64,000 bases of DNA from assembly GCA_900469955.1 (NCBI GenBank), contig UBYX01000005.1, positions 62,001 to 126,000 on the forward strand, written 5' to 3'. The notes under the pieces were generated by a model. The model was not told the DNA's origin, made no database searches, and saw only the letters and a program-made list of their open reading frames with translations. Position 1 is the stretch's first letter; each line of letters opens with the position of its first letter. Origin of the DNA: Hyphomicrobiales bacterium. GTDB taxonomy: Bacteria > Pseudomonadota > Alphaproteobacteria > Rhizobiales > Rhizobiaceae. Shown in pieces: positions 5,806 through 35,338 of the stretch. A program made the position numbers and the translations under genes.

Positions 5806-7455
5806 TCAATCGAAGCTCTCGACGAATTTCTGGCGGAACTCGTCCATTCGATAGACCGGCGTCTCCTTTGCCGGAAGCATGCCTGGCTGCCATTTCCAGC
5901 GGTCGAGGCGCTTCAAAACCTCCGGATTGCCGGCGACAATGTGAACCGGCACATCACGGGACGCACCCTCCCCGGTGATGATCGAGGCGGGCTGATGATC
6001 TCCGAGCAGGATGAAAAGCGTGTTTTTCCCATATCGCGCCATATAGGAGCCGAGGGTTTCGAGCGCATAGTCGATCGAGGCTGCATATTGCGAACGCACC
6101 CGCTCCGGATCCGCCCAGATGACCGAGGCGGGGTCGCCGCTCTCCGCCTGGCCGTTGAAGATGGTGCCGTCACCAATCTTGTCCCAGTCTACCAGTGAAG
6201 GAATTGGCGTCCACGGCGCATGGCTGGAGATCAACGCAATCTCCGCCATGACCGGTTGGTGGCCCTGTGGCCGCTCCAGCTTCTCAAAGGCCGCGAGCGT
6301 GTACTGATCCGGCATCGTCACCCAATTGAAGGGTTTTCCCTTGTAACCGAGTCCCGCGGCGGCATGAACGCGGTCGTAGCCGAAATAGGCCGATTCCGGC
6401 CAGTCGAGCGTAATCGCCGGCATCACCGCGGCAGTCCGCCAGCCCGACGCACGAAAAAGCCTGTTGAGGCTTCGCCGCTCGCTGGTGATCATCCGGTCGT
6501 AACGCGACTGATTGCTTACCCATAGGCCCGAAAGAAGAGTGCCATGCGCAAGCCAGCTCAAACCGCCAACCGTGGGCGACGTGAGCCAGCCGCTGCGTGC
6601 CTGCAGTCCTGACGCTTCGATCTGCCGCTCGACGGCGGCGAGGCGATCATGGACCCGTACCGCATATCGGGGATCTTCAATCGCACTGCGGCCATAGGAT
6701 TCGACAAAGACAAGCACGACGTCCATGCCGGACAGCGCGGAAAAATGCTGACCGGGGGAAACCCCGTCCCGCGCCAGTTCGCCCTCGAACCGATCGAGGT
6801 CGGCACTTGACTCCCTCACCATCTCGATCCGGTTGATGATGTAGGGAATGGTCGATGCTTCGACGCCGAGATTGCGACGGTCATCCTGCACGGCAAGGAG
6901 CGTCAGGCCGACAAGCAAAACTACGCCGCTTCCGATTGCCGATCTCCGCCGTGTTTCGGCTGCAAGGTTGCGGAAGCCGCCGAGCGACCAATAGAGCAAC
7001 GCGATGACCAGAACCCATGCGAGCAAACCGGCGCAGATGGTTCCGACTGCTTCCCTCACACCCACTGCACCGCTTAGGAGATTCCATCCGTCGGTCAGGA
7101 TCTTGACGTCCAGATACGGGTTGAACGGCCGCTGGAAGGCAATGCCGGTGCCAAGATCCGCCAATTTGAGAAGCAGCATTGCGCCGGCGAGCAAAGTGGC
7201 TGACCAGCGCAGGAGGGCCAAGAATCGGCCAGTCATTGTTGACGCCAGGAATGCAAGCCCCGCGACTTCGAGAGGAAATCTCACGTCAGAAAGATCCGCG
7301 AAGGTCTGGGGATTGGATGGCAGCGCCAGGATCAGAGCGACCAGTATCAACGAAATCGTGATGCGAAGAGCGGAAAACCGGTTTGCAGCCGGATGCGTAT
7401 GATACTCTGCAGGAAAGTTGCGACCTCGTTCGCGAAAAGGCCGGTATTCATTCAT
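5806..7455 (-). CDS. membrane-anchored sulfatase/alkaline-phosphatase-superfamily protein
   Basis: A 549-residue protein with about five N-terminal membrane segments (between residues 28 and 190) and a large extracytoplasmic domain. The domain shows alkaline-phosphatase-superfamily marks: a metal-site VFVESYG (249-255), a nucleophile region SPTVGGLSWLAHGTLLSG (293-310), ISSHAPW, and LGDHQP near residue 485. This layout recalls LtaS/OpgB/EptA-type enzymes that move or hydrolyse phospho-groups on envelope glycans or lipids, but the substrate is unknown. GGAGAG precedes the start. It is divergent from the flippase-like gene by 30 nt, which suggests joint function in the neighbourhood 5806-15707. 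Confidence 0.75.
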   Translation of the reverse strand: MNEYRPFRERGRNFPAEYHTHPAANRFSALRITISLILVALILALPSNPQTFADLSDVRFPLEVAGLAFLASTMTGRFLALLRWSATLLAGAMLLLKLADLGTGIAFQRPFNPYLDVKILTDGWNLLSGAVGVREAVGTICAGLLAWVLVIALLYWSLGGFRNLAAETRRRSAIGSGVVLLVGLTLLAVQDDRRNLGVEASTIPYIINRIEMVRESSADLDRFEGELARDGVSPGQHFSALSGMDVVLVFVESYGRSAIEDPRYAVRVHDRLAAVERQIEASGLQARSGWLTSPTVGGLSWLAHGTLLSGLWVSNQSRYDRMITSERRSLNRLFRASGWRTAAVMPAITLDWPESAYFGYDRVHAAAGLGYKGKPFNWVTMPDQYTLAAFEKLERPQGHQPVMAEIALISSHAPWTPIPSLVDWDKIGDGTIFNGQAESGDPASVIWADPERVRSQYAASIDYALETLGSYMARYGKNTLFILLGDHQPASIITGEGASRDVPVHIVAGNPEVLKRLDRWKWQPGMLPAKETPVYRMDEFRQKFVESFD

Positions 7456-7485
7456 GCGTCACTCTCTCCGTCATCGTTGCAGGCT

Positions 7486-8412
7486 ATGCGTCTACTGAAG
7501 TCTATCGGCTTTATTGCGGCTGTGACACTTCTCGTTGCCGTGATCTGGTGCTCCGATCCGCAGCGGATCGGAGCACATCTGTCGTCAGCGAGCCCCGCTT
7601 ATGTCGTTGCGGGGCTGCTTCTGGTTCAGGTTCAGATCGTGCTTTCCGCCTTGCGTTGGCGATTCACGGCGGCGAGGCTTGGGCAGGACCTGGGCCGCAG
7701 TCAGGCAATCGGCGAGTACTACCTGGGAACGCTGCTCAACCAGCTTCTTCCGGGCGGCATGGCGGGCGATACTTTACGGGCCTTCCGTAACCGGACTGGA
7801 ATGCCAACGGGTTGGAAGATTCCCGCCCAGGCGGTAATCCTAGAGCGTATTGCCGGCCAGGGCGTGTTCTTCCTCGTGGCGACCTGCGGAGTTCTGATCT
7901 GGCCACTCTTCGGTGGCGCGGTGATCCCGGAAAATCTGCGCTCTCCCCTTCAAGGCTTCGCGTTTTTCGTTGCCGCGACGGTGTTTGCCGCCCTGATTGT
8001 CCTTCGCTATCCGCCGCGAAAGATCGAGCCTCACGTGAAAAGGCTGCGGGCAGCGTTTGCTCTCGTCTTTCTGCAGGATCGAGCATGGCGGCTACAGGCG
8101 GTGTTGAGCGTTTCAATCGTCGGAAGCTACATTGGCATGTTCATGGTGGCGTCAGCGGCTGTCGGCGCACCATTGCCAGCGCTCGCGGCCGTGACAGCCA
8201 TTCCGCTCGGTCTGTTGACGATGCTGATACCGGCCACGATCGCCGGATGGGGAGCCCGGGAAACGGCGGCGGCGTCGCTCTGGCCCCTTTTCGGTTATAC
8301 GGCTTCGGACGGAATCGCGGCCAGCATTCTCTATGGTCTCATGGCATTGGCAGGGGCCGCACCCGGTGTGATTGTCGTTGTTGCAACAGCGCTCGGTCAA
8401 AGACGCCCCTGA
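7486..8412 (+). CDS. UPF0104/lysylphosphatidylglycerol-synthase transmembrane-region (flippase-like) protein
   Basis: An integral membrane protein of 308 residues matching the AglD/MprF-flippase-like family. The family-typical segment is YYLGTLLNQLLPGGMAGDTLRAF, and multiple hydrophobic helices follow, with TIAGWGARETAAASLWPLFG near the C-terminus. ATG 7486 is preferred over the upstream in-frame codon at 7393. It removes an overlap with the divergent gene and begins with MRLLKSIGFIAAVTLL. Related proteins act in glycolipid or phospholipid translocation; the lipid here is unknown. It converges with the FkbM methyltransferase gene with a 4-nt gap. Confidence 0.75.
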   Translation: MRLLKSIGFIAAVTLLVAVIWCSDPQRIGAHLSSASPAYVVAGLLLVQVQIVLSALRWRFTAARLGQDLGRSQAIGEYYLGTLLNQLLPGGMAGDTLRAFRNRTGMPTGWKIPAQAVILERIAGQGVFFLVATCGVLIWPLFGGAVIPENLRSPLQGFAFFVAATVFAALIVLRYPPRKIEPHVKRLRAAFALVFLQDRAWRLQAVLSVSIVGSYIGMFMVASAAVGAPLPALAAVTAIPLGLLTMLIPATIAGWGARETAAASLWPLFGYTASDGIAASILYGLMALAGAAPGVIVVVATALGQRRP

Positions 8413-8416
8413 GTTA

Positions 8417-9163
8417 TCACGACATGAGTCGGGCATAGATATCGCCGGACGAGGCATTTTCCGCCAGCCGGGATAGCTCGATCAGCATGTCGTCGGCAGA
8501 TATCCACCCGCCGCCCACGAATTGGTGCCGCTCTCCTTCGACACGGTTGAAAAGATAGGGCCCGAGCCTGCGCAAATGGTCGATCGCCGCTTCTGCGATC
8601 TCCATCGTGGCGGGAATATATTCAAAGGCCACGAGCGGGATCGGATGATGCAACCCGGCTATGATATCGGCTTCAGCGCCCTCCACGTCGATCTTGCAGA
8701 AACGGGGAAGACCGAATTCGGCGATCAAGGCGTCCAGCGTCGTCATTTCGACACGCTCGACGCGGTCCCAGGTGACGTTGCTGAAACCCGGGGTCTTGCC
8801 AACCTTCGAAATCCACGAGGACGAAATGCTGGTTACCGTAGGATGCCTCCGCGAAATATGCAGATCGACGCTTCCCGGGTTCTTCCCCACGGCTTTGCGC
8901 AACAGGACGAGATCTTGGTCGGCGAAGGTCCTCTGGATAAAATCGGCAAACATCGGTTGCGGCTCGAGCGCGACCACTTTCGCCTGGAGCGAAAGCAGCG
9001 TGCGGCTGCGGCTGCCGGCATGCGCGCCAATATCGAAAACGAGGTCTCCCGGCCTGATGAAGCCTGCATAAAAGCGCCTGAGCGCCGAACGGCGCCAGGG
9101 TTGGCCGTAATAGATCAGCAATGAGCGGGCAAGCCCGAGGGAGGCCGCAAAGTCAGCCCGCAT
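8417..9163 (-). CDS. FkbM family SAM-dependent methyltransferase
   Basis: A 248-residue methyltransferase. Motif I is VFDIGAHAG (residues 42-50), then VVALEPQPMF for the SAM-ribose acidic residue, and the FkbM signature KIDVEGAEADIIAGL around residue 167. FkbM proteins O-methylate sugars and polyketides, so this one probably methylates a sugar or glycan made by the neighbourhood. It overlaps the upstream CDP-alcohol phosphatidyltransferase gene by 11 nt, so the two are translationally coupled. Confidence 0.82.
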   Translation of the reverse strand: MRADFAASLGLARSLLIYYGQPWRRSALRRFYAGFIRPGDLVFDIGAHAGSRSRTLLSLQAKVVALEPQPMFADFIQRTFADQDLVLLRKAVGKNPGSVDLHISRRHPTVTSISSSWISKVGKTPGFSNVTWDRVERVEMTTLDALIAEFGLPRFCKIDVEGAEADIIAGLHHPIPLVAFEYIPATMEIAEAAIDHLRRLGPYLFNRVEGERHQFVGGGWISADDMLIELSRLAENASSGDIYARLMS

Positions 9164-9938
9164 GGCCGCGTCCGTTCCTGTTCAGCAGAAACGCCACGTC
9201 GACGGCGAAAGAATAGGTGAGCGCGGCAAGCGCTCCTGCCGCGAGCAGGTTGGAGACCGGCGGCGCTACCACCGGAAATAGGAGCAGCCAGAGCGTCATC
9301 CCTTGCACGACGCAGATCGCCTTGCGCCGGGTGGAGGGCGGCAGCTCGCCGCGGAGGCTGGGAAAAAGCGTCTGAGCGGCAACATAACCGTAACGCATCA
9401 GGCCGATCAGCAGCACCCAGGCTCCAGCCTTGTTGAGCTGAAAAGCGGCCAGAGACAGGAAAAAGATGAGCAGGGCATCGATTTCCATGTCGAAACGGGC
9501 ACCGAAAGGCGAAGCCGTGCGGCCTCTTCGGGCGAAATAACCGTCTACTCCATCCAGACCCAGCGCAACGGCTATCCCCGATCCCATAAGCCAGAGCGTC
9601 TCGGGATTATGGCCAAGATCACCTGACGCCAGCAACAACCCGCCCAAGACGGCCGTGATCGCGCCGCGGATCGTCGTGATGATGTTCGCGAAGCCGAACC
9701 GGCTGTGCCCGTGCCCACCGAGGTTACAAAGCGAGACTGCCGAAATTGCCGCATAAACGGCAAAGGCGGTGCCGATCGCCGGGGTATCGAGCGCCAAGCG
9801 GTCGCCGAAGAAATGCATGCCCCCCAAAAGAACCACCCCGACCGCTAAAGTGGCCGCACCTGCATCGATAAACAGCGCCCGGCGGGCATTCCGGTCCGGC
9901 ATTTCGTCGGGACGATGAGCGCCGGTCCACTCAGCCAT
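9153..9938 (-). CDS. CDP-alcohol phosphatidyltransferase family protein
   Basis: A 261-residue membrane enzyme of the family that transfers a phosphatidyl or phospho-alcohol group from a CDP-linked donor to an alcohol. The full catalytic signature DG-x2-AR-x8-G-x3-D-x3-D is present at residues 132-154 (D132, G133, A136, R137, G146, D150, D154), so it should be active. About seven hydrophobic segments surround it. The acceptor is not known; it is not obviously PgsA or PssA. GAAGGG lies before the start. The start overlaps the stop of a 33-codon small ORF, and the 3' end overlaps the FkbM gene. Confidence 0.83.
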   Translation of the reverse strand: MAEWTGAHRPDEMPDRNARRALFIDAGAATLAVGVVLLGGMHFFGDRLALDTPAIGTAFAVYAAISAVSLCNLGGHGHSRFGFANIITTIRGAITAVLGGLLLASGDLGHNPETLWLMGSGIAVALGLDGVDGYFARRGRTASPFGARFDMEIDALLIFFLSLAAFQLNKAGAWVLLIGLMRYGYVAAQTLFPSLRGELPPSTRRKAICVVQGMTLWLLLFPVVAPPVSNLLAAGALAALTYSFAVDVAFLLNRNGRGHAG

Positions 9939-10032
9939 TGCAGAAACCCTTCAAGAAGAATTTCCAGCCGCAAATTTCTAGGAAATGCGTGACACCGGTC
10001 GCCTTCTTCGAAAGATCATGTGAAAAATTCAT
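9931..10032 (-). CDS. small ORF, 33 residues, upstream of and overlapping the CDP-alcohol phosphatidyltransferase gene
   Basis: This frame is too short for routine calling. It has a strong ribosome site (GAGGAG, 6 nt before ATG at 10032) and its TGA lies inside the first codons of the next gene (8-nt overlap), as in translationally coupled pairs. The peptide begins MNFSHDLSKKATGVTHF and ends with GWKFFLKGFCNG. It has two cysteines and a basic aromatic C-terminus, and no signal peptide or obvious membrane segment. I do not recognise it. It could be a leader peptide, a small partner protein, or a peptide substrate. The calling rests on the ribosome site and the coupling alone. Confidence 0.5.
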   Translation of the reverse strand: MNFSHDLSKKATGVTHFLEICGWKFFLKGFCNG

Positions 10033-10236
10033 GACAAGCTCCTCGTGAGCAAGATGGGGAGATTTACGGCGAGCGGCCAAGGCTGGATTTCGAAAGCCCC
10101 GTCAAATAAACGTGATACGGCACTTACCCTCTCGCGGAAACGCTCCCTTGCCGCCATCGATTAAGTTCCTAGGTGTGAGCGGATAGGAGTGAAAGGGCTG
10201 GTGTTGACAAGACGTGAGACAGCTCAGGAAGCGACG
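10033..10236. promoter_or_regulatory. divergent intergenic region of the accessory cluster
   Basis: About 204 nt separate the left-going unit (small ORF, CDP-alcohol phosphatidyltransferase, FkbM) from the right-going unit (dehydrogenase, PTPS-like, GT4, methyltransferase), so both promoters must lie here or just inside the genes. A TTGACA at 10204-10209 is present without a convincing -10 element on the right-going side. I see no hairpin terminator and no further gene. Confidence 0.4.
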
Positions 10237-11205
10237 GTGACGAGTGAAAGCCGTGCGCTGTGGTTCGAAGGGCCACGGCGCTGTGCGCTGCGTTGCGAAA
10301 CCCTTGGCGCGGGTGGCGCAGACGAAGTCACGATTGGAACGCTCTTCAGCGGCATCAGCCGTGGCACCGAGTCCCTCGTCTTTGAAGGACACGTGCCGGA
10401 AAGTGAGTACGAACGCATGCGGGCGCCTCATCAGGCCGGCCAGTTCCCTTTTCCCGTCAAATACGGATACGCTGCCGTAGGCATTGTGGAGGCTGGGCCT
10501 AGATCTCTGGTGGGAAGGCCGGTCTTCTGTCTTCATCCCCATCAGGACCGATTTCGTGTGCCTTCCGGTGCCGTCTACGCGCTGCCGGCGGATCTGCCGC
10601 CCGAACGGGCTGTCCTCGCTGCCAATATGGAGACCGCTCTCAATATCGTCTGGGACGCGAGGATCCAGCCGGGTGATCGGGTGACCGTCTTCGGCGCCGG
10701 CGTGGTCGGGCTGATCGTCGCCTATCTGGCGTCACGGATCATTGGCACCGAAACGACGATCTGCGACGTAAATCTCGACCGTGTGGAAGCTGCAAAGGCT
10801 CTCGGCATCCGGTTCACCCTGCCCGATTCCGTCCCTGATGATTGCGATGTCTTGGTCAACGCTTCCGCCTCGGACGCGGCTCTGGCCACGGCGCTCGATC
10901 ATGCTGGCTGTGAAGCCCGTATCGTCGAGGCGAGCTGGTACGGGGGGCGCCTTGCGCAGATTCCCTTGGGAGGCGCTTTCCACGCCCGGCGGCTCTCCAT
11001 CGTCAGCTCCCAGGTGGGTACTTTGCCGCCCGATCACCGCCCTCGCTGGAATGCAGGACGGCGAATGACGAAAGCTCTTCAGCTCCTTGCCGATAGCAAG
11101 CTCGATCGCCTGATTTCGGGAGAAACCACCTTCGGAACATTGGCGGACGACTATGCAAGCATTATCGCCTCGCCCGCCACACTCTGCCACCGCATTCGTT
11201 TTTGA
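10237..11205 (+). CDS. zinc-binding medium-chain dehydrogenase, BchC-like
   Basis: A predicted NAD(P)-dependent alcohol dehydrogenase, 322 residues from this start. It has a GroES-like N-terminal half (FSGISRGTESLVFEG, FPVKYGYAAVGIVE) and a Rossmann fold with VTVFGAGVVGLIVAYLAS. The SGISRGTE segment resembles BchC-like enzymes; the classical zinc-ligand set is not obvious. GTG 10237 is chosen because AGGAA stands 6 nt before it and the family similarity begins just after. An in-frame GTG at 10189 would add 16 residues with a poor ribosome site. It is the first gene of a four-gene run and may reduce or oxidise a side-chain alcohol of the product. Confidence 0.78.
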   Translation: MTSESRALWFEGPRRCALRCETLGAGGADEVTIGTLFSGISRGTESLVFEGHVPESEYERMRAPHQAGQFPFPVKYGYAAVGIVEAGPRSLVGRPVFCLHPHQDRFRVPSGAVYALPADLPPERAVLAANMETALNIVWDARIQPGDRVTVFGAGVVGLIVAYLASRIIGTETTICDVNLDRVEAAKALGIRFTLPDSVPDDCDVLVNASASDAALATALDHAGCEARIVEASWYGGRLAQIPLGGAFHARRLSIVSSQVGTLPPDHRPRWNAGRRMTKALQLLADSKLDRLISGETTFGTLADDYASIIASPATLCHRIRF

Positions 11206-11214
11206 GGAAATCGC

Positions 11215-11613
11215 ATGTTCGCCGTTGAAGTTCGTGATCACGTCATGATCGCGCATAGCCTTCCCCGCCCGGTTTTCGGGCCTGCACAAGGCCTGCACGG
11301 CGCGACCTTCGTGGTCGACGCGGCCTTTTTCACGGAAGACCTCGACGACAATGGACTGGCCGTCGATATCGGACTCGCCATTGACGTTCTGAAAGAAGTC
11401 CTCGCGCCACTGAACTATCAGAATCTGGACACGCTTGAGATATTCGCAGGGCGGGTAACGACGACGGAATTCCTCTCAAAATACATTTTCGACCGCATCG
11501 CCGAGGAGATCGGCAAAGGCCGGCTGGGCGGAGATGGTGGGCGCATTCGCAAGCTGCGCGTTATGCTGCACGAATCCCACATGGCCCGAGGCTGGTACGA
11601 GGCGGAATTATGA
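11215..11613 (+). CDS. 6-pyruvoyl-tetrahydropterin synthase/QueD-family homologue with degenerate active site
   Basis: A 132-residue single-domain protein with the fold pattern of PTPS/QueD: an IAHSL segment with H14, LHGAT, NGLAVDIGLAIDVLK, LNYQNLD, TTTEFLSKYIFDRI, and a terminal VMLHES with E120. Key residues are changed. The catalytic Cys is Ala24. The third zinc His is Ala30 (HGA instead of HGH). The Asp-His dyad is Asn67-Tyr68. H14, H28 and E120, which binds the pterin ring in known members, remain. It may bind a pterin-like ligand or catalyse something other than the known reactions. It lies 9 nt after the dehydrogenase gene and overlaps the glycosyltransferase gene by 4 nt. Confidence 0.75.
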   Translation: MFAVEVRDHVMIAHSLPRPVFGPAQGLHGATFVVDAAFFTEDLDDNGLAVDIGLAIDVLKEVLAPLNYQNLDTLEIFAGRVTTTEFLSKYIFDRIAEEIGKGRLGGDGGRIRKLRVMLHESHMARGWYEAEL

Positions 11614-12656
11614 ACCGAGATCTCGTCTTTGCTTACCCTGGCGATATAGAGACTCGCACGGGAGGATACGGCTACGACCGGCGCGTCATCGCATCGCTTG
11701 CCGAGCGCGGCTGGAATATCGAGCTGGTTTCACTCGGCGAGGGTTTCCCGAACTCCGATAACGCCGAGCTCGACGATGCAGGGCGGCTTCTTTCGGATAA
11801 ATGTCGGGACGGAAGCCTTGTCCTGGTCGATGGGCTTGCCTTCGGGGTCATGAACCAATGGGCGGAACGAGAGGCCAACAGGCTGAAGATAGTGGCCCTT
11901 GTGCATCACCCCCTGGCTCTGGAAACCGGGCTCAGTGAGGTAAAGCAACAGGAGTACCTATCGCGGGAGAGGACGGCACTTGCGCATAGCCGTGGGGTAA
12001 TCGTCACATCGCACGCCACCGCAGCGGAACTCGCTACCAACTATCAGGTACCGTTCGAAAGAATCGCGGTGGCCACCCCCGGGGTCGATCCGGCCCCGCT
12101 TGCGGTTGGCGGAGGCAATCCGCCGCTGATCCTCAGCATCGGCACCCTGACCCACCGCAAAGGCCACGACGTGCTGATCTGCGCGCTCGAAGAGATACGT
12201 GGCCTGCCCTGGATATGCCGTATCGTTGGAAGCAAGACGCTCGATCCGGCCATAGCGGCGGCGCTGGAACAACAGGTTGCCCAGTCAGGGCTCGGCGACC
12301 GCGTCGATTTTGCGGGCCAGCTGGACGACGTGCGCGCTGAACTCGCCAAGGCCGATATTTTCGCGCTTGCCAGCCGCTATGAAGGCTATGGCATGGTCTT
12401 TGCCGAAGCACTTGCCCAAGGCCTGCCTATCGTGGGCTGCGCAGCCGGCGCCGTGCCGGATGTCGTGCCGGAAAGCGCGGGTTTCCTCGTACCTCCGGAT
12501 GATCCGGACGCTTTTGCTGCCGCCTTGCGCCGGCTGCTGCAGGAACCGGACACCCGCATTGCCATGGCGGATGCGGCAGCGATTGCAGGTGCAGGTTTGC
12601 CGTCCTGGAAAGACACCGCCACAGTCATATCCGATTTCCTGGAGGCGGTGCCGTGA
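11610..12656 (+). CDS. GT4-type glycosyltransferase
   Basis: A 348-residue retaining glycosyltransferase of the GT-B fold. Visible are TGGYGYDRRVIASLAERGW at the N-lobe glycine loop, LILSIGTLTHRKGHDVLI opening the C-lobe, and the E-x7-E nucleotide-sugar motif (E258 and E266 within EGYGMVFAE). It also has GLPIVGCAAGAVPDVV. It presumably glycosylates the cluster's small molecule or lipid. It overlaps the genes on both sides by 4 nt, so expression should be tightly coupled. Confidence 0.85.
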   Translation: MNRDLVFAYPGDIETRTGGYGYDRRVIASLAERGWNIELVSLGEGFPNSDNAELDDAGRLLSDKCRDGSLVLVDGLAFGVMNQWAEREANRLKIVALVHHPLALETGLSEVKQQEYLSRERTALAHSRGVIVTSHATAAELATNYQVPFERIAVATPGVDPAPLAVGGGNPPLILSIGTLTHRKGHDVLICALEEIRGLPWICRIVGSKTLDPAIAAALEQQVAQSGLGDRVDFAGQLDDVRAELAKADIFALASRYEGYGMVFAEALAQGLPIVGCAAGAVPDVVPESAGFLVPPDDPDAFAAALRRLLQEPDTRIAMADAAAIAGAGLPSWKDTATVISDFLEAVP

Positions 12657-13438
12657 CCGGCTTCGACAAGGCATGGCTTGCCTTGCGGGAGCCGGTGGAT
12701 GTCCGTTCCCGCGATCAGGCTCTGCTGGCCGGAGCGATCGAAACCACGAGGAACGCTGCCGATACCGGCATTCTCGACATCGGCTGTGGCACCGGTTCGA
12801 CTTTCCGCACTCTTTCGCCCAAGATGGACAGGAACCACCGCTGGAGGCTGTTCGATCACGATCCGCAACTGCTCGCGGAGGCTCGCCGCCGTCATGCGGG
12901 CGAGGCCGAGTTCCTCTGCGGGGATCTGAACGATCTGGAGGCTCTGCCGCTCGCGGATGTTGCTCTGGTGACGGCTTCGGCGCTTTTCGACCTCTGTTCC
13001 GAGCGATACATCCTGGCGCTTGTCGAAAAGATTTCAGAAACCGGCGTCGGCCTCTATGCCGCGCTGAACTATGACGGCGAAATTCATTGGTCGGAAACAC
13101 ATCCCCTCGATGAGGCGATCGTGGCGGGTTTCAACGCTCATCAGCTGAGCGACAAGGGATTTGGGATATCGCTCGGACCGGGCGCCTGGAAAAGGCTCGC
13201 CGACTGTCTGCAGGAACGCGGATATACTGTCCGAGTGGCCGCATCGCCTTGGCTCATGACAGCGGCGGACGCGAAGCTGCAACGGCTCTTTCTCGACGGA
13301 ATAGTCCGTGCAGTCTCCGAATATGGCCTGTTCGATCCAGCTGAGATCGATGAATGGGCAGATTTCCGAACCCAGGTGATCGACGAGACTGGAAGTTCAT
13401 GCCGTGTCGGCCATCAGGACATCCTCGCAATCCGGTGA
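12653..13438 (+). CDS. class I SAM-dependent methyltransferase
   Basis: A 261-residue methyltransferase with motif I LDIGCGTG (residues 41-48), an acidic loop LFDHDPQLLAEA for the SAM ribose, and a motif-IV-like VALVTASALFDL. GTG at 12653 is the start: GGAGG precedes it and it overlaps the upstream stop (GTGA). The substrate is unknown and is presumably the sugar or ring made by neighbouring enzymes. Its last 42 nt overlap the 3' end of the opposing RibD-like gene. Confidence 0.8.
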   Translation: MTGFDKAWLALREPVDVRSRDQALLAGAIETTRNAADTGILDIGCGTGSTFRTLSPKMDRNHRWRLFDHDPQLLAEARRRHAGEAEFLCGDLNDLEALPLADVALVTASALFDLCSERYILALVEKISETGVGLYAALNYDGEIHWSETHPLDEAIVAGFNAHQLSDKGFGISLGPGAWKRLADCLQERGYTVRVAASPWLMTAADAKLQRLFLDGIVRAVSEYGLFDPAEIDEWADFRTQVIDETGSSCRVGHQDILAIR

Positions 13439-14224
13439 CGCCGCCACGCGCCTGATGTCGACCCGCAAATTGCAGTCGAAAACGATATCGCTACCGATGT
13501 TGTAGATTTGAACTTCCGGGCGACGCGCCTCCGAGAGCCGGTCGATCGGCGCGAGCCGGATACCCGCGGGTCCTGATCCGATAATGATCGGTGAAACGGA
13601 AACATGCAGCCGATCGATCAACTGCGCGTCGATGAAGCGAGAGATGGTGTTTGCGCCCCCTTCGACCAGGATGGCTGTGAGGTCGCGTTCGGCGAGCGCC
13701 GCAAGAATGTCGCGAGACGCCAGGCCGCCGTCCGCTTGTCGCGGCAACGAGATCAGCTCATGCCTGGCGTTGCGGCGCGGCACGTCATCGGCCTGGATGA
13801 CGACCACTGGAGTGCCGTCGTCGTTCAGCATCTTGGCGCGGTGGGGCATGCGTCCATTGCAGTCCACCACGACGCGCACGGGGCTCCTTCCGGGTACGGC
13901 ACGAACGGAAAGGCTTGGATCATCCGCCACCACTGTTCCGACGCCGATCACCACGGCATCAACAAGCGCGCGGCAACGGTGCAGATGGGCAATCCCGTCG
14001 CACCCCGAAACATCCTGAGCGTCTCCCATCGGAGTGGCGACCCGGCCATCCAGCGACTGGCCGACTTGCGCCATGACGAACGGCCCATTCCGCCTCGCGA
14101 TCGGCCCGTAGAGGGGCAGACAGGAGACGTCGGCATCCGGGGAAAGCACACGCGGTCGGACCATGCCCTCGCGAAGCGAAAGCAGATGATGCCACATCTC
14201 TTCGGTCACTCTGACTGATTGCAT
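13397..14224 (-). CDS. RibD C-terminal-domain (dihydrofolate-reductase-like) family reductase
   Basis: A 275-residue protein. Residues 48-270 match the RibD reductase domain, with MAQVGQSLDGRVAT, VIGVGTVVADDPSLSVR, LVEGGANTISRFI and VSPIIIGSG. The preceding 45 or so residues (including a WHHLLSLREG stretch) are not a deaminase domain, so this is not the housekeeping RibD. Relatives reduce the ribose of a pyrimidine intermediate in flavin synthesis or reduce pterins. Next to the PTPS-like gene, a pterin- or pyrimidine-directed reduction is a reasonable inference. Confidence 0.8.
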   Translation of the reverse strand: MQSVRVTEEMWHHLLSLREGMVRPRVLSPDADVSCLPLYGPIARRNGPFVMAQVGQSLDGRVATPMGDAQDVSGCDGIAHLHRCRALVDAVVIGVGTVVADDPSLSVRAVPGRSPVRVVVDCNGRMPHRAKMLNDDGTPVVVIQADDVPRRNARHELISLPRQADGGLASRDILAALAERDLTAILVEGGANTISRFIDAQLIDRLHVSVSPIIIGSGPAGIRLAPIDRLSEARRPEVQIYNIGSDIVFDCNLRVDIRRVAASPDCEDVLMADTA

Positions 14225-14513
14225 ACACCGCCTCGTTAGCCGGCCGGAAATTGGAAATGCCGCAACGGAGAAGAAGTTCCTTTGCCCATGCTATATAGGT
14301 TTAGTGCATCCCGAGAAACTCACCTTGTGGATACTTCGGCAACGGTCCGTCAACCCGAGGAATACGGTCGAGGCGGTCAGATCTGACCCGATAGGCCTTC
14401 ACCATAAGGCTTAGCCTCATCTCATTGACCTACTCGCCTGACTGAGTTGTGCCGGTTATCAGATGATCAAAGCGCGAAAGCGGCACTGACACTCTGGAAC
14501 CGGGCATCATCTG
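14225..14513. promoter_or_regulatory. divergent intergenic region with two dyads
   Basis: This gap separates the RibD-like gene from the GT87-type gene. It contains a perfect 14-bp palindrome GGTCAGATCTGACC (14375-14388). ATCAGATGAT (14458-14467) is repeated inverted as ATCATCTGAT (14506-14515), and the latter is part of the 13-nt near-palindrome ATCATC-T-GATGAT (14506-14518) that covers the ATG at 14514. A TATATA at 14291-14296 could be a -10 element. The layout suggests regulator binding to paired sites, one masking the start codon. Confidence 0.45.
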
Positions 14514-15707
14514 ATGATTGCGATAGGAAGCTTTGCCTCGATCTCTAACCGCGCGATATCGGCCACGATTCTGGCGCTTGCTTTCGCGATGCTATACGCG
14601 GTCGGGATACAGGGCGTAATGAAGGCGGGTCCGATCGGCGACGACTTCATGGTCTTCTATCGCGCGGGAGGCTTGTTTCTCCAAGGTGGCGATCCCTGGC
14701 TTGCGCTGATGAATACTCCGCAGCCCTATTCCTATCCGCCACATTCGCTTTCGATCGTTGCTGCCTTCAGCATGCTTCCTCAGTCGATCGCCCTTGCACT
14801 CCATATCGCGATCTGCCTGGCTGCCATTGCGGTCATGTGCTACTGCGCCAACCAATGGTTTCTGAAGATCAAGAGCTTCAGAAGCATGACCATCGCGCAA
14901 GCCTTGGCGCTGGCGCTGATCATCGGCAATCCCTATACGGCGACCAGCTTGTATCAGGGCCAGATGACATTGCCGGTCATAGCGGCATTGTTGTTATCCT
15001 GGCATTTCCGTCAAAAGGGCCAATGGGTGACGGCGGGCATTTTTCTTGCTCTTGCCACCCTGAAACCGCAGCTTTCCGTCCTCTACGTGATCTGGCTGCT
15101 TATGTCGGTGAATATCGGGGTGGTTCTAGTGGGGGGCTCGCTCGCTGGCCTGATGATCCTGCCGGGCGCACTGGTCCTTGGCCCGTTGAAGCCATTCGAA
15201 AGCTGGCTGACCTCGCTCGGCGGCTATTCGCACGTTTCAATCAATGCCCCGGGCTCACCCTTCGTCGTCGGCATGGAAAGCCTTCTGGTCGCTCACGGGC
15301 TGGAGCCGGACCGCCTCTGGTTGATTCTGTTGTGCCTGGCGGGAACGGCGCTTCTGCACAGGTACCGGCGCCATCTCGACCAGACGGTTACCTTGCACGC
15401 ATTGCTCGTGCTCTCTTTCACGTTTCTCTATGCGCACGACTATGACTATGTCGCGGTCATCCTGTTGTGGAGCTACGGAATGATGATGGTCCTCAATAGC
15501 GCCAGCTTGGTAAAACTAGGCTTCTACGCTGTTTTGGCACTTGGCTTCTTCATACCGCAGAGGTTGCTTCGCGATATCGATATCCCGCTTGTCGTCCATT
15601 CGCGAACATTGATCCTCGCAGCACTTTGTCTGGCGGTGATCGTCTGGAGCAAGGAGATCAATCGCGCGGCATCTCTCGAAAAGCGATATTCCTCCGTCAC
15701 AGCATGA
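14514..15707 (+). CDS. GT87/DUF2029-type polytopic membrane glycosyltransferase
   Basis: A 397-residue protein with 9-11 hydrophobic segments. Between the first helices it has GDDFMVFYRAGGLFLQGGDPW and PYSYPPHS, characteristic of the DUF2029 (GT87, PimE-like) family, which uses polyprenyl-phosphate sugars outside the membrane. LYQGQMTLPVIAALL and LATLKPQLSVLYVIWLL are further family blocks. It probably adds a sugar to the lipid- or membrane-linked product of this neighbourhood. ATG 14514 lies inside a palindrome and has only a weak ribosome site. Confidence 0.78.
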   Translation: MIAIGSFASISNRAISATILALAFAMLYAVGIQGVMKAGPIGDDFMVFYRAGGLFLQGGDPWLALMNTPQPYSYPPHSLSIVAAFSMLPQSIALALHIAICLAAIAVMCYCANQWFLKIKSFRSMTIAQALALALIIGNPYTATSLYQGQMTLPVIAALLLSWHFRQKGQWVTAGIFLALATLKPQLSVLYVIWLLMSVNIGVVLVGGSLAGLMILPGALVLGPLKPFESWLTSLGGYSHVSINAPGSPFVVGMESLLVAHGLEPDRLWLILLCLAGTALLHRYRRHLDQTVTLHALLVLSFTFLYAHDYDYVAVILLWSYGMMMVLNSASLVKLGFYAVLALGFFIPQRLLRDIDIPLVVHSRTLILAALCLAVIVWSKEINRAASLEKRYSSVTA

Positions 15708-15737: not shown

Positions 15738-17270
15738 TCAGTTCTTCAGGAGCCGTTGTACAGCCTCCCATTTGGGATGGCTCGCGCCCTCAATCTCCAG
15801 CAGTCCCCAGCTTCCCCATTTGCTGGGTTCGCCCATCGAGGCAAAAACCGCGTATAGGTCTCCGCCGGCCGCCCACCAGTTCTGAATATGCCGAATGTAG
15901 AGGTCTCCCATACGGGGATCCCTGTTGGCGGCGATAAACAGATTCGTCAGCTTTTCGTTGTTCTCGGCGCCGCCGAAACCGACCAGGTGCTGCCCCCCCT
16001 CATAGGCATAAAGTTTCACCCCATGCTCTCGCGCGATTTCCGCCTGAGTTTCGATGGATCTCTTGTTTTCCGTCTCGATTTCCTTTGCCAATTCGAAGAA
16101 GATCCGGCTGAGCGGCCACGCGGAGACTTCGTCCGCCCGTTCCGGCGCGCCGAGCCCGCCGCCGAAATAAGGGGCGATAGCCAACACATCCGCATGCTCT
16201 TTCACGCCCTTCCAGGACATGATGGTCGTGCTCGTCCAGTCGTTTGCCGCCTGGGCGGAATAGACGCCGATGATCCGGCGTTTGTCGGCACCGAACACAT
16301 CTTCCCATCTCGAGAGGATCTGCGTCGTTCGATGGGCATAATATCGAAGCTGGGCTTGGTAGCCGTCGTTCGAAAAGCCGAGCGCCAGCCCTTGCTTTCC
16401 CGCATAATCCGCTTGATCGAACATCGTATTCCAGACCTCATTGGAATATTCGACATGCACGTTCAAACTCGGATCAAGATCCTTGCGGACCTGCTCGGCG
16501 AAGCGCTGAACATAATCGTCATCCGCCAGATGCGGCATGTTGAACCAGGGATCGACTTTCACTTCGTTGCTGAGTTCGATCATGTATTCGAGGGGAACAC
16601 CGAGATCGGAGCGGCCGAATTGCCTAGGTCTGGGCCTGTCGTTCCAGCTCCTCACCTGCGAATTGTTGGTGCCCATCCAATCCATGAAGCGCAGGGCGGA
16701 CATGCCCTTGAGCCTTTGCAGAAACGGCTCTCTGAACCTGCTTTTCGGTATCGGGCCGCGCTCGTAGACCCTGATGTTGCGAATCGGATCCGCAGGGTCG
16801 GTTTCCAATATGCGGCCGGTAAAGGCGTCCGGCTTCCTCAGATTCCTGACATCGTCGCGTCCGGGAAACCGGCCCTCGAGTTCGCCGCCGCCGACATAGG
16901 TCATTCGGCCCTTCCCGTCATAGTGGACCGAAAGCTCGACAGGCAGGTTCTTGCGATGTTCGGTGAATATCAGGAAGCTGTCCATCACCGACCCCTCCGG
17001 GACCCGGGTCGGATATCCGTCTTCCGTCATGGGAGGCAGCGGCGTGTCCCAGGTGAAGGGTGCGTCCTTGATCTGTACCCGCCAGCGGGCCGCATTATGG
17101 GCAAGATTGGAAAAGGCCTGTTCCGCAGCCCAATAGGACATACCGCTTATGTTCAGGGCCAGACGGCCGGGTGATGGAGCGGCCGCAAGTGCCGGGCCAT
17201 CGCTCGAGCCGCTGAGAAAAGGCATGAAAGCGGCACTCGACAGCAATTGCAGCAACGTACGGCGGTTCAC
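15738..17270 (-). CDS. Tat-exported glycoside-hydrolase-like protein
   Basis: A 510-residue protein. The N-terminus MNRRTLLQLLSSAAFMPFL, followed by ALAAA, looks like a twin-arginine signal. The body has features of TIM-barrel cellulose-binding/glycosidase-like proteins: LRFMDWMGTNNSQ, VHVEYSNEVWN with a possible acid/base Glu, and LYAYEGGQHLVGFGG with a possible nucleophile Glu. I cannot name its GH family or substrate. GTG at 17270 follows GGAGG. It converges with the GT87-type gene and may trim or bind an exported glycan. Confidence 0.65.
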   Translation of the reverse strand: MNRRTLLQLLSSAAFMPFLSGSSDGPALAAAPSPGRLALNISGMSYWAAEQAFSNLAHNAARWRVQIKDAPFTWDTPLPPMTEDGYPTRVPEGSVMDSFLIFTEHRKNLPVELSVHYDGKGRMTYVGGGELEGRFPGRDDVRNLRKPDAFTGRILETDPADPIRNIRVYERGPIPKSRFREPFLQRLKGMSALRFMDWMGTNNSQVRSWNDRPRPRQFGRSDLGVPLEYMIELSNEVKVDPWFNMPHLADDDYVQRFAEQVRKDLDPSLNVHVEYSNEVWNTMFDQADYAGKQGLALGFSNDGYQAQLRYYAHRTTQILSRWEDVFGADKRRIIGVYSAQAANDWTSTTIMSWKGVKEHADVLAIAPYFGGGLGAPERADEVSAWPLSRIFFELAKEIETENKRSIETQAEIAREHGVKLYAYEGGQHLVGFGGAENNEKLTNLFIAANRDPRMGDLYIRHIQNWWAAGGDLYAVFASMGEPSKWGSWGLLEIEGASHPKWEAVQRLLKN

Positions 17271-31897: not shown

Positions 31898-34800
31898 TCA
31901 GTGAAAATTGCGGCCCTTCGGCATCACGCGCCCCGGCTCCGGCATGTAGGACGGAAGATCACCGCTCCCTGTTGCCGTTTTGGAAGAACGGTCGTCCATT
32001 CCGTTGGAACGTCGCTTCTGCCGATGATCGCCGCTGGATTGCAGCGTTTCATCGGCCCTTGAGGATGTTCCAAACCGTCGGGCTTCCTTCTGGAGGAGGC
32101 CGAGCATGGGGGTAAGGTCCTCGATATGCTCGACCACCGTATGGATGACGCCGCTCTGGCTTTGCAGTCTTCCTTGGATCTTTACGAGTCGCGCGCCCAT
32201 GACGACCGGCCGGTAGCGCTCAAATATTTTTGGCCAGACGATTGCGTTGGCAACACCGGTCTCATCCTCCAGTGTCATGAAGATCACGCCTCTGGCAGAT
32301 CCCGGCCGCTGCCGTACCAGCACAAGTCCTCCGATCGTCACCCTCCGGCCATTCGGGACGTCCAGGAGATCAAGGCTGCGGGTGATCCCCATGGACTTGA
32401 ATTCGTCGCGAAGGAACGAGACCGGATGGGCCTTGAGCGACAAGGAGAGATATCGATAATCCTCGATCACCTCTTCGCCCGCCAGCATTGCGGGAAGTGG
32501 CACCTTCGTTTCCGGCCGAAGGTCTACCCCGTCCGCTACATCGAATAGAGGCAGATCTTCAGCTGTTTTTTTCATATCGAGCCCTCGCACGGCCCAGAGG
32601 GCCTCCCGGCGGGCAAGCCCAATGGAAGCGAAAGCATCGGCATCTGCAAGCCGCTCGATGTCCAATTTGTCGAGACCGGACCGCAGCCACAGGTCATGGA
32701 TTGATGCATATCCTCTGCCCCGGTTGGCAAGCAGATGTTTTCTTAAGTCCTTTTCCGCAAGACCTTTGACCTGCCTGAATCCCAGCCGGACGGCATATTT
32801 CGTCCGGATCACATCCCTCATGGAAGCATGACGGCCATCGATGGCATTTTTGTCAAAACCGCTCTCCTCCAAGGTGCAATCCCAATCCGAGTGGTTGACA
32901 TCGACCGGAAGAATTTCCACTCCGTGCTCCCGGGCATCCCGGATGAGCTGCGCTGGCGCATAAAAACCCATTGGTTGCGAATTCAAAAGCGCCGCGCAAA
33001 AGACGTCCGGATAATAGGCTTTAATCCAGGAAGACGCATAGACGAGCAAGGCGAATGACGCGGCATGGCTTTCCGGAAAACCGTATTCCGCAAAACCCTC
33101 GATCTGGCTGAAGCAGCTTTCCGCAAATTCCTTGGAATAGTTGTTTTCCAGCATTCCCTTGATGAAATCGCGCTTGAACTCCTCCACTCGTCCCGATCGC
33201 TTGAACGTCGCCATCGAGCGGCGCAACTTGTCGGCCTTTTCAGGAGAGAAGCCGGCACCGGTGATGGCGATCTGCATCGCCTGTTCCTGAAAGAGCGGGA
33301 CGCCGAGCGTTCTTTCCAATACCTTTTCCAATTCAGGGCTGGGATATTCGATAGGCTGCTTGTTCCTTACGGCTTCCCGCCGCTTCAGATACGGATGAAC
33401 CATGTTTCCCTGGATCGGGCCGGGCCGCACAATCGCCACTTCGACGACGAGATCATAGAATATTCTCGGCCGAAGCCGCGGCAGCATGCTCATCTGCGCC
33501 CGGCTTTCGACTTGAAAGACTCCCACCGTATCGGCCCGGCAGATCATGTCGTAGACATTGGAATCCTTATCCTTCTGCAGGAGGCCGGCCAGAGTTTCGT
33601 TTACGTTATAGTGCAGGCGCATAAGCTCGAATGCCTTCTTCAGGCAGGTCAGCATGCCAAGCGCAAGCACATCAATCTTCAGGAGTTTGAGCGTATCGAG
33701 ATCGTCCTTGTCCCACTCGATCATATACCGCCCCGGCATGGCCGTCTTCATGATCGGCACGACCTCATCAAGCCGGTCGCGCGTGATCAGGAAACCGCCT
33801 ACATGCTGGGTGAGATGCCGCGGGAAACCCATAAGTTCCTTTGCATGGGCCATGACTTTCTTGGTGGTGGAATCCGACACATCAAGGCCGGCGACCTTTG
33901 CTTCCCGCTCCGAAAGCCCCTCCTCGGACCAGCCCCAGACCGTGCTCGAAAGTGCCGACTGCACATCCTCCGAAAGCCCGAAGGCCTTGGCCACCTCGCG
34001 GCCAGCCATCCGGGTCCGGTAGCTGGTGACCGCCGCGGTCAATCCCGCATGGCGATAACCGTAGTGTTCGTAAATGTACTGGATGACTTCTTCCCGCCGT
34101 GCATGCTCGAAATCCACGTCGATATCCGGCGGTTCGTTACGCTCGGTCGAGATGAAGCGCTCAAAAAGAAGTGTCGTGGATTCCGGATTCACCTCGGTGA
34201 TGCCCAGACAGTAACAGACCGCGGAATTGGCGGCTGAACCTCGACCCTGACAAAGAACTTTCAGCTCATGGCGCGCATGCCAGACGATATGGCGCACCGT
34301 CAGGAAATAGGGCTCGTATTTCATCTCCTTGATGAGATCGAGCTCATATCGGATCTGCTGCGAAACCTTTTCTGGAATTTTGCCGGGATATCGCTCTCGG
34401 GCGCCTTCCCAGGCAAGTCTTTCCAAGGTTTGCGACACCGTTTCCCCGGGAACGCTTTCATCCGGATAATTGTGCTCCAATTCGCTCAGCGAAAAAGAGA
34501 GCCGGCTGAAGAATTTTTCCGTATTGGCAATTGCATCCGGATAGGCATGGAAGAGCCGCGCCATTTCAGCCGCATGCTTGATATGCCGTTCCCCGTTTGG
34601 AGCCAGACGAAAACCCGCCTGCTGAATTGTCACATGCTCCCGGATGGCGGTCACCACATCCGATAGCGACCGGCGATAAGGCAGATGGAAAAGCGGCAGG
34701 TTGGTTGCGATCAAGGGCAGGCGATAACGTGCGGCGATTTGTGCAAAAGTCGCAAAAACAAACCCGTCCCGGCCGTCATAGGTCGGCGAGAGGGCGAGAT

Positions 34801-35338
34801 AGATATCCTTGCGAAATCGTTCGCGATAGCTCTCCAGACGATCACCGAGATCGGCAAGATATTCGGGGTCTTCTACGGAGGAAAAATCCGGAACGACGGC
34901 GAGCATCATCTCGTCGCACCATTCCAGAAAATCCCATCCTTCCAGGATACAGGAGCCTTTTTCGGTCCTGAGGTTTCCCCGGCTGAGAAGCCGGCAAAGA
35001 TTGGCCCAGCCCTTGCGGTTGCGCGGATAAGCGAGCACATCCGGCGTGTCGTCAGAAAAAACGAGCCGCGCACCGGGATAAAACGCGCAAGGCCTGATAG
35101 CCTCCTCCTCGCCTTCCTTTCTGCCCTGCTTCTGCTGGCGGTCCCAAGTCTCTCGCATTTCGCGCACCTGGTTATGCGCCCGAACCACGCCGGCGACGGA
35201 ATTCCGGTCGGCGATGCCGACCCCTGAAAGCCCAAGCAGGCTCGCGGTCAGCACCATCTCCTCCGGTCTTGCCGCCCCCTCCAGAAAGGAGAAGTTGGTC
35301 TTCGCACCGATCTCGAAAAAAAACGGAATATCCTTCAT
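31898..35338 (-). CDS. dnaE2: error-prone DNA polymerase DnaE2 (ImuC)
   Basis: This is the polymerase of the SOS mutasome, 1146 residues, full length. The N-terminal PHP domain is degenerate relative to DnaE1 ([26 protein letters not shown]). The catalytic [15 protein letters not shown] supplies two Asp, and [17 protein letters not shown] lies in the palm. The C-terminus has an OB fold ([20 protein letters not shown]) and the typical end [11 protein letters not shown]. Its start overlaps the imuB stop by 4 nt, so imuA-imuB-dnaE2 form one SOS-controlled unit. Confidence 0.96.

Follow-up and report, generated by a model that had tools for sequence, protein, structure and literature searches.

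PTPS-IV, a subfamily of the COG0720 proteins that reportedly goes back to Phillips 2012, is known from a structure and a gene neighborhood and is functionally unsolved. The protein of that structure, SCO6650 of Streptomyces coelicolor (PDB entry 3d7j), is said to lack both zinc and the catalytic triad. The pathways to the pterin glycosides of cyanobacteria and Chlorobium start from GTP cyclohydrolase I together with a catalytically active PTPS. The subject of this study is the neighborhood of a PTPS gene in a 64-kb stretch of DNA from a Hyphomicrobiales bacterium (contig C41 of a 5.79-Mb genome; the whole stretch is referred to as the window), for which an original prediction, made from the sequence alone, had proposed a set of genes that jointly make a glycosylated pterin- or pyrimidine-derived envelope molecule. 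The neighborhood is real; its core, consisting of genes for an MDR-family dehydrogenase (mdr), the PTPS homolog (ptps), a GT4 glycosyltransferase (gt4), and a methyltransferase (mt), is conserved well outside close relatives.

The published accounts of PTPS-IV overlap with this cluster in part. In the sections cited here, the AGeNNT study (2017; PMC5445326) gives FGPAQ as the PTPS-IV signature of COG0720 and describes, for 561 sequences, a neighborhood with PF00925 and PF01872. PF00925 is read there as FolE2/GTP cyclohydrolase I, whereas its Pfam name is GTP cyclohydrolase II, and under that name the PTPS-IV neighborhood has to be interpreted differently. The cited part of Zallot et al. 2016 (PMC5041015) assigns PTPS-IV to F420 with reference to unpublished work. 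FGPAQ and the GTP cyclohydrolase II/RibD neighborhood are common to these accounts and the cluster; the MDR dehydrogenase, GT4, methyltransferase, CDP-alcohol transferase, membrane genes, and a product do not figure in the portions cited. The archaeal-type early riboflavin route (GTP cyclohydrolase III, ArfB, ArfC) and BrbF of the Rhizobiales, as presented in the cited part of PMC9478397, use the same enzyme families, namely, a cyclohydrolase, a creatininase-related formamidase, and a pyrimidine reductase; in contrast to that route, the recurrent neighbors identified for the cluster include none of the later riboflavin enzymes, and the cluster adds PTPS-IV, the MDR dehydrogenase, GT4, and the methyltransferase. 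The combination of a pterin with a glycosyltransferase is an idea shared with the cyanobacterial and Chlorobium pterin glycosides (cyanopterin; CtPGT, PMC5683033, cited in part). PTPS-IV, its structure, and its GTP cyclohydrolase II/RibD neighborhood are thus already known; within the available text of the open-licence literature, no prior description was found of the fuller cluster, its span across Pseudomonadota, Actinomycetota, and (as a diverged version) haloarchaea, or the argument against F420 given below, and the cited part of a 2026 review of pterin signaling (PMC13259868) mentions neither PTPS nor RibD nor rhizobia.

Sequence and predicted fold assign the PTPS homolog to the PTPS-IV subfamily. 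Across 42 sequences, F21, G22, P23, and A24 of the FGPAQ signature are invariant, and Q25 is kept in at least 90%. A profile of these 42 members matched 3d7j at an E value of 4e-54 and the remaining PTPS/QueD entries of the PDB at 6e-6 or worse, and an AlphaFold model (predicted local distance difference test [pLDDT] score, 93.6) superposed on 3d7j with a TM score of 0.95, compared with 0.66 to 0.77 for Escherichia coli QueD chains, placing SCO6650 and the window's protein in the same family. The surroundings agree with the PTPS-IV neighborhood described above: RibD_C genes occur in the window and in 39 of 57 full homologous loci, and GTP cyclohydrolase II occurs in 22 of those 57, although the window's cluster does not include it. 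The residues of the active site were surveyed in 111 aligned rows, which are not independent, two being the window's own gene and others coming from related species. The first two zinc-binding histidines are kept, and the third is replaced by alanine in all 111 rows (HGH to HGA), a replacement also seen in alignment to human and rat PTPS; neither the CxxxHGH motif of QueD/PTPS-I nor the CxxxxxHGH motif of PTPS-II is present. The site of the catalytic cysteine is occupied by Gln25 in 110 of the 111 rows (by Ala24 in the alignment to rat PTPS), and the Asp-His pair is mostly replaced by Asn-Tyr (Asn in 74 rows and Tyr in 109), while the pterin-anchoring Glu120 is retained in every row. The label of PTPS/QueD homolog in the original prediction therefore stands as to the family (PF01242) and not as to QueD, since the protein is a PTPS-IV in which the third zinc-binding histidine and the catalytic residues typical of QueD and PTPS are lost. 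It is the sole PF01242 match in the window's genome.

Homologous loci were taken as the best 80 of 184 confirmed stretches in a scan of named genomes, to which the window proteins were matched by tblastn, counting the best nonoverlapping match at each place. Beside PTPS, homologs were found of MDR (79 loci), GT4 (72), the methyltransferase (64), RibD (56), the CDP-alcohol transferase (47), the sulfatase-like protein (43), FkbM (36), the flippase-like protein (28), and GT87 (2). A contig end cuts 23 of these loci, leaving 57, all proteobacterial, in which the PTPS gene has 10 kb of sequence on either side (the full loci); there, with bit-score thresholds applied to the best match (more than 60 bits by tblastn for the methyltransferase), the core is nearly universal (MDR in 57, GT4 in 56, methyltransferase in 57), followed by RibD and cdpA (39 each), the sulfatase-like gene (36), flip and fkbM (27 each), GTP cyclohydrolase II (22), and GT87 (2). 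MDR and PTPS genes lie on the same strand within 200 bp of each other in 66 of 79 loci and 206 bp apart in one more, and in the other 12 they are separated by 1.5 to 5 kb, on opposite strands in two cases. That the members are kept together despite a shuffled order argues for a shared function.

The co-occurrence was also marked among 297 genomes of the order. PTPS matched 90 of them at E ≤ 1e-5, and MDR matched 101 at E ≤ 1e-20; the scores of each form two separate groups, and the strong sets used here were delimited after the scores had been seen, giving 88 genomes for PTPS (E of 1.4e-18 or better, leaving out G122 and G151 at about 2e-6) and 89 for MDR (E of 2e-48 or better, leaving out 12 at 3e-38 to 2e-32). 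MDR was present in all 88 strong-PTPS genomes, and a single genome, G111, carried MDR, as a fragment, without PTPS. Neither gene was found in these searches in 12 sampled genomes from other genera of the family. A search of the phylum found PTPS in 26 of 398 genomes at E ≤ 1e-20, including 1 of 15 from other genera of the family (G647), so the distribution is patchy. The co-occurrence on which the original prediction had been staked is thus strongly borne out, both in these genomes and in the core counts of 56 to 57 among 57 full loci.

The cluster also extends to plasmids and to other phyla. PTPS was found in 20 plasmid records, in 16 of which MDR adjoins it by coordinates; the flanks were examined in 12 of the 20. 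Streptomyces globisporus (locus L140) has cdpA, mdr, ptps, gt4, mt, flip, ribD, a creatininase-family gene, and GTP cyclohydrolase II together, and S. fungicidicus (L132) has the same set without a RibD match. Microbacterium (L136) carries cdpA, mdr, ptps, gt4, mt, flip, and ribD; Arthrobacter (L141) carries mdr, ptps, and gt4 only; and the gammaproteobacterium Thiodictyon (L134) carries mdr, ptps, gt4, mt, a cytochrome b561 gene, ribD, and cdpA. The core is present in Methylosinus as well. Eleven haloarchaeal records matched in the MDR search; among the five haloarchaeal loci examined, PTPS, the methyltransferase, and GT4 occur in four, cdpA occurs in three, and GTP cyclohydrolase III stands beside MDR in two (the L143 copy was checked by Pfam), L146 having MDR and GTP cyclohydrolase III only. 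A related cassette lies on pNG700 of Haloarcula marismortui, for which reason the charged or glycosylated pterins of archaea, namely, the halopterins (sulfohalopterin and phosphohalopterin) and solfapterin, were considered as a lead; nothing on halopterins was found in the open-licence literature, and the lead is not used as evidence. Among the loci examined, fkbM was seen in Pseudomonadota only; those of Actinobacteria and haloarchaea yielded no match to it. In a tree of 37 MDR proteins, Actinobacteria and Thiodictyon form one clade (100/99), haloarchaea stand on a long branch, and the roseobacter Palleronia has the gammaproteobacterium Pseudohaliea as its sister (100/98), a placement that suggests horizontal transfer. 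Four Streptomyces linear plasmids carry PTPS-IV without the other cluster genes in the flanks examined, near recurring cupin, MBL-fold, and BTAD-regulator genes (L133, L139, L142, and L148; about positions 10001 to 12426), and a second use of PTPS-IV there is possible.

Genes that recur around the cluster but are missing from the window's locus were identified by clustering of open reading frames over the 80 loci, with names taken from Pfam on examples. GTP cyclohydrolase II lies near the cluster in 26 loci by clustering and within 10 kb in 30 of 80 by tblastn. In the window's genome, GTP cyclohydrolase II is encoded once, away from the cluster; GTP cyclohydrolase I likewise has a single gene, and there are five RibD_C genes. 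Copies of GTP cyclohydrolase II were counted in 20 of the 80 genomes: at least two were present in 14 of the 15 with one in the locus (L060 has one), and the 5 without one in the locus comprise three with a single copy, L032 with two, and L088 with three (the L088 locus being just 8.7 kb long). Cytochrome b561 is encoded beside the cluster in 32 of 80 loci (for example, L041:13002-13547), in both alpha- and gammaproteobacteria (L134:14528-15085), and a redox link to the cluster product is possible. Also recurrent are an OpgH-like GT2 protein (19 loci; annotated mdoH in L137), an inositol-monophosphatase-family enzyme (14 loci), and an exo/endonuclease/phosphatase-family protein (7 loci).

The cluster cyclohydrolases differ at one residue, corresponding to Tyr105 of the E. 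coli enzyme and reportedly to a methionine in SCO6655. The two Streptomyces cluster enzymes have Met, whereas Tyr stands there in the other 33 of 33, which all come from Pseudomonadota (32 were read by script and L111 by eye). SCO6655, a GTP cyclohydrolase II of S. coelicolor, reportedly halts at the formylated pyrimidine owing to its Tyr-to-Met change. Both Met-type cyclohydrolases adjoin a creatininase-family gene, a family found by the cluster in L132, L140, L144, and L111, with a further match about 6 to 7 kb from MDR in L093. The cited part of PMC9478397 describes a creatininase-related formamidase acting on this formyl-pyrimidine in riboflavin synthesis in Sinorhizobium and Brucella; SCO6655 is named once in PMC2853524. 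GTP cyclohydrolases II and III and creatininase-family genes in related loci point to a route that starts from GTP and leads to a diaminopyrimidine, strengthening the GTP-derived origin, pterin or pyrimidine, that had been proposed for the product.

The remaining enzymes can be placed with differing precision. The ribD product (275 amino acids) consists of the RibD_C domain alone, without the N-terminal deaminase domain of bifunctional RibD, and keeps what we take to be the motifs of the family (SLDG, DDPxLTxR, and EGG), with Arg in place of Lys in SLDG[K]. Its profile matched best to 6p8c, named as a 2,5-diamino-6-ribosylamino-4(3H)-pyrimidinone 5'-phosphate reductase (E = 8.5e-38), and second to 2azn, named as a uracil-type reductase (E = 1.2e-34); it scores below the NCBIfam cutoffs for RibD_Cterm and for the archaeal and bacterial reductases, so its substrate is not settled by sequence. 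The dehydrogenase scores 47.8 bits against NCBIfam BchC TIGR01202, below the cutoff of 291.25, and lacks the usual catalytic zinc ligands (SGISRGTE and KYGY). In cdpA, the motif D-x2-D-G-x2-A-R-x8-G-x3-D-x3-D is intact, which we take to be the CDP-alcohol phosphotransferase motif DxxDGxxARxxxxxxxxGxxxDxxxD, and D129, D132, G133, R137, G146, D150, and D154 do not vary among 20 proteins drawn from Pseudomonadota, Actinomycetota, and haloarchaea. For the sulfatase-like membrane protein, a search of PDB sequences with its profile found no match at E ≤ 0.01; its model (pLDDT, 88.8) matched best by Foldseek to 4uop, LtaP, at 1.3e-9 with low TM scores of 0.37/0.48. Foldseek ranks 1 to 18, at TM scores of 0.29 to 0.52, are taken by phospho-headgroup transferases and their relatives (LtaP/LtaS, MCR-1, PbgA, EptC, and GacH) together with an unassigned protein of Vibrio, and true sulfatases start close behind at rank 19.

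Together, these features lead to the proposal that the cluster is mobile and directs the biosynthesis of one small molecule derived from GTP, a proposal that, as a whole route, we hold tentatively and at somewhat less than an even chance. The product would most likely be a pterin or diaminopyrimidine that carries a sugar and a methyl group and is possibly linked to a lipid. The reactions and their order we infer from observed gene content, conservation, family membership, and residue losses; the first step is the best supported, and the third, fourth, and sixth are the weakest. GTP cyclohydrolase II, encoded outside the cluster here and inside it in many relatives (with GTP cyclohydrolase III in some haloarchaea), would open GTP to 2,5-diamino-6-ribosylamino-4(3H)-pyrimidinone 5'-phosphate; where the cyclohydrolase halts at the formylated stage, a creatininase-family formamidase would complete the step. 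The RibD_C reductase would then convert the ribosyl to a ribityl group, and the MDR dehydrogenase would oxidize a side-chain hydroxyl (2'-OH) to a ketone. With its usual zinc site gone, PTPS-IV may guide closure of the 5-amino group on this ketone to give a 7,8-dihydropterin of the neopterin type, the conserved Glu holding the 2-amino-4-oxo edge. GT4 would attach a sugar, the methyltransferase would methylate next, and the CDP-alcohol phosphotransferase would form a phosphodiester bond, the partner probably being a lipid, while at the membrane the product would be handled by the flippase-like and LtaS-like proteins. Glycosylation, lipid anchoring, and export are suggested by the family names of these enzymes. 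The link to the envelope that had been part of the original prediction is plausible, and the CDP-alcohol transferase and a flippase-like gene do accompany the core, even in Actinobacteria.

Several observations weigh against this route. Of the 57 full loci, 18 lack RibD and 18 lack cdpA. If RibD reduces the substrate and MDR then oxidizes it, the pair only brings the oxidation state back to where it was, and GTP cyclohydrolase I manages without such a detour. Some cluster cyclohydrolases (L043 and L132) exceed the ordinary RibA cutoffs and may therefore be plain RibA. The association of Met with creatininase is not a clean rule, given the match in L093 and a Rhizobium metagenome-assembled genome (L111:11608-14152) in which a Tyr-type cyclohydrolase II stands with a creatininase-family gene and cytochrome b561; for the creatininase of Streptomyces, the best score is that against MftE (141 bits, below the cutoff), with just 37 bits against ArfB, so that its role as a formamidase is putative. 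Four Streptomyces plasmids carry PTPS-IV without other cluster genes in flanks of 10 to 12 kb (one such lone-PTPS plasmid, H37, has a partial MDR match 39 kb off). The haloarchaeal PTPS proteins are 22 to 24% identical and lack FGPAQ while keeping HSHH, a possible zinc site, so the archaeal reaction may differ. The membrane genes, finally, could serve a separate neighboring pathway.

The same starting chemistry of GTP cyclohydrolase II and RibD would also lead to a modified diaminopyrimidine, or lumazine-like, nucleoside without closure of the pterin ring, which PTPS-IV would bind or isomerize and which would carry the sugar and the methyl group on its ribityl chain. The absence of the zinc ligand and catalytic residues from PTPS-IV means that pterin chemistry is not assured, which speaks for this alternative, whereas the PTPS fold and the anchor Glu are typical of pterin-handling enzymes, and we regard it as rather unlikely. 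That the locus consists of two adjacent units, a pterin or pyrimidine cluster (mdr-ptps-gt4-mt-ribD) and an envelope unit (cdpA-fkbM-flip-sulfatase, with the OpgH-like GT2 in some relatives), seems unlikely: differing strands and gaps, and the absence of the membrane genes from 32 to 53% of full loci, speak for such an arrangement, but cdpA accompanies the core in two Streptomyces loci, Microbacterium, Thiodictyon, and three of five haloarchaeal loci, and flip does so in the two Streptomyces clusters and the one of Microbacterium. Gene distances between the two groups also correlate at 0.76 to 0.96, which, with no background control, is weak evidence.

A role of PTPS-IV in F420 (deazaflavin) biosynthesis has the published statement of PMC5041015, in its cited part, in its favor, and neighboring GTP cyclohydrolase II and RibD would suit a flavin or deazaflavin precursor. 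The FO synthase CofH, however, scored above its cutoff in 6 of the 88 PTPS-IV genomes compared with 22 of the 209 others (Fisher P = 0.39; no enrichment), and no CofH match at E ≤ 1e-10 was found in the window's genome; GT4, the methyltransferase, and the CDP-alcohol transferase would have no evident place. The rarity of CofH in PTPS-IV genomes indicates that F420 is not the general role in this order, and the assignment is very improbable here. Ordinary queuosine (QueD) or tetrahydrobiopterin synthesis, suggested by the automatic annotation of plasmid records as "6-carboxytetrahydropterin synthase," is scarcely tenable and was rejected on score (29 bits against the NCBIfam QueD cutoff of 89.25) and on the HGA motif, and no que gene was among the recurrent neighbors identified, que genes not having been searched for as such.

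The ten genes of the original prediction are full-length open reading frames (Table 1), and their family labels hold by Pfam, with the dehydrogenase a weak BchC match only. The small open reading frame listed with them has no defensible counterpart, short reading frames having been sought only at 9900-10260. The claim of compact packing is partly right. Flip and fkbM are 4 bp apart, fkbM and cdpA overlap by 11 bp, mdr and ptps are 9 bp apart, ptps overlaps gt4 and gt4 overlaps mt by 4 bp each, and mt and ribD are convergent, with an overlap of 42 bp. There are also gaps of 250 bp between cdpA and mdr, where a scan for promoters and terminators found nothing, and of 289 bp between ribD and the GT87 gene, and the genes divide by strand into sulfatase, flip, fkbM-cdpA, mdr-ptps-gt4-mt, ribD, and GT87. 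With several strand changes, the neighborhood is not one operon. The true start of flip is probably downstream of 7393.

Table 1. Genes of the PTPS-IV neighborhood, with positions in the window.
Gene or product	Coordinates	Strand	Family match
Membrane alkaline-phosphatase-superfamily ("sulfatase") protein	5806..7455	-	PF00884, 34 bits
flip, flippase-like UPF0104/LPG_synthase_TM membrane protein	7393..8412	+	PF03706, 121.5 bits
fkbM, FkbM-family methyltransferase, accessory	8417..9163	-	PF05050, 45.9 bits
cdpA, CDP-alcohol phosphotransferase (CDP-OH_P_transf)	9153..9938	-	PF01066, 56.4 bits
mdr, BchC-like MDR-family dehydrogenase	10189..11205	+	Weak Pfam matches; best NCBIfam, BchC TIGR01202
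ptps, PTPS-IV (COG0720 subfamily), T-fold	11215..11613	+	PF01242, 68.6 bits
gt4, GT4 glycosyltransferase	11610..12656	+	PF13692, 112.5 bits
mt, class I S-adenosylmethionine methyltransferase	12653..13438	+	PF13649, 43 bits
ribD, stand-alone RibD_C reductase	13397..14224	-	PF01872, 134.6 bits
GT87 membrane glycosyltransferase-type protein, outside conserved unit	14514..15707	+	PF09594

The GT87 gene, which had been counted as a cluster member, is excluded here: the two loci that have it, both among the full ones, belong to N. alkalisoli and N. huautlense, the Neorhizobium species nearest to the window, and it is a local or lineage-specific gene. The PTPS proteins of these two species are 98% and 97% identical to that of the window, which comes from a Neorhizobium itself. 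The conserved unit therefore ends on the right at about 14224 and not at 15707. Beyond GT87, a 510-amino-acid protein (15738-17270, minus strand; possible signal peptide by eye; no Pfam match at 1e-5) has homologs in the same two loci. Judged by eye from their translations, genes resembling a branched-chain amino acid ABC transporter lie to the left of the cluster and a ribosomal gene like rplU to the right. Elsewhere in the window, a DNA polymerase III alpha-type protein of 1,146 amino acids (31898-35338, minus strand) and a large NAD-glutamate dehydrogenase of 1,588 amino acids (49403-54169, plus strand) are ordinary.

The cluster supplies a concrete, testable gene set for the orphan PTPS-IV family represented by 3d7j, members of which are often annotated as QueD. 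If the proposed route from GTP is true, it would be a second entry from GTP to pterins. Should the CDP-alcohol step also act on this molecule, bacteria of soil, plants, and the sea would have a membrane molecule of a new kind. In its widest form, which we consider distinctly unlikely, the cassette would define an unrecognized class of membrane-linked glyco-pterins, phospholipids headed by a pterin or diaminopyrimidine, made by bacteria and, in diverged form, haloarchaea through a second pterin route via GTP cyclohydrolase II or III rather than I, and perhaps carrying redox equivalents to or from the cytochrome b561 whose gene adjoins many of the clusters.

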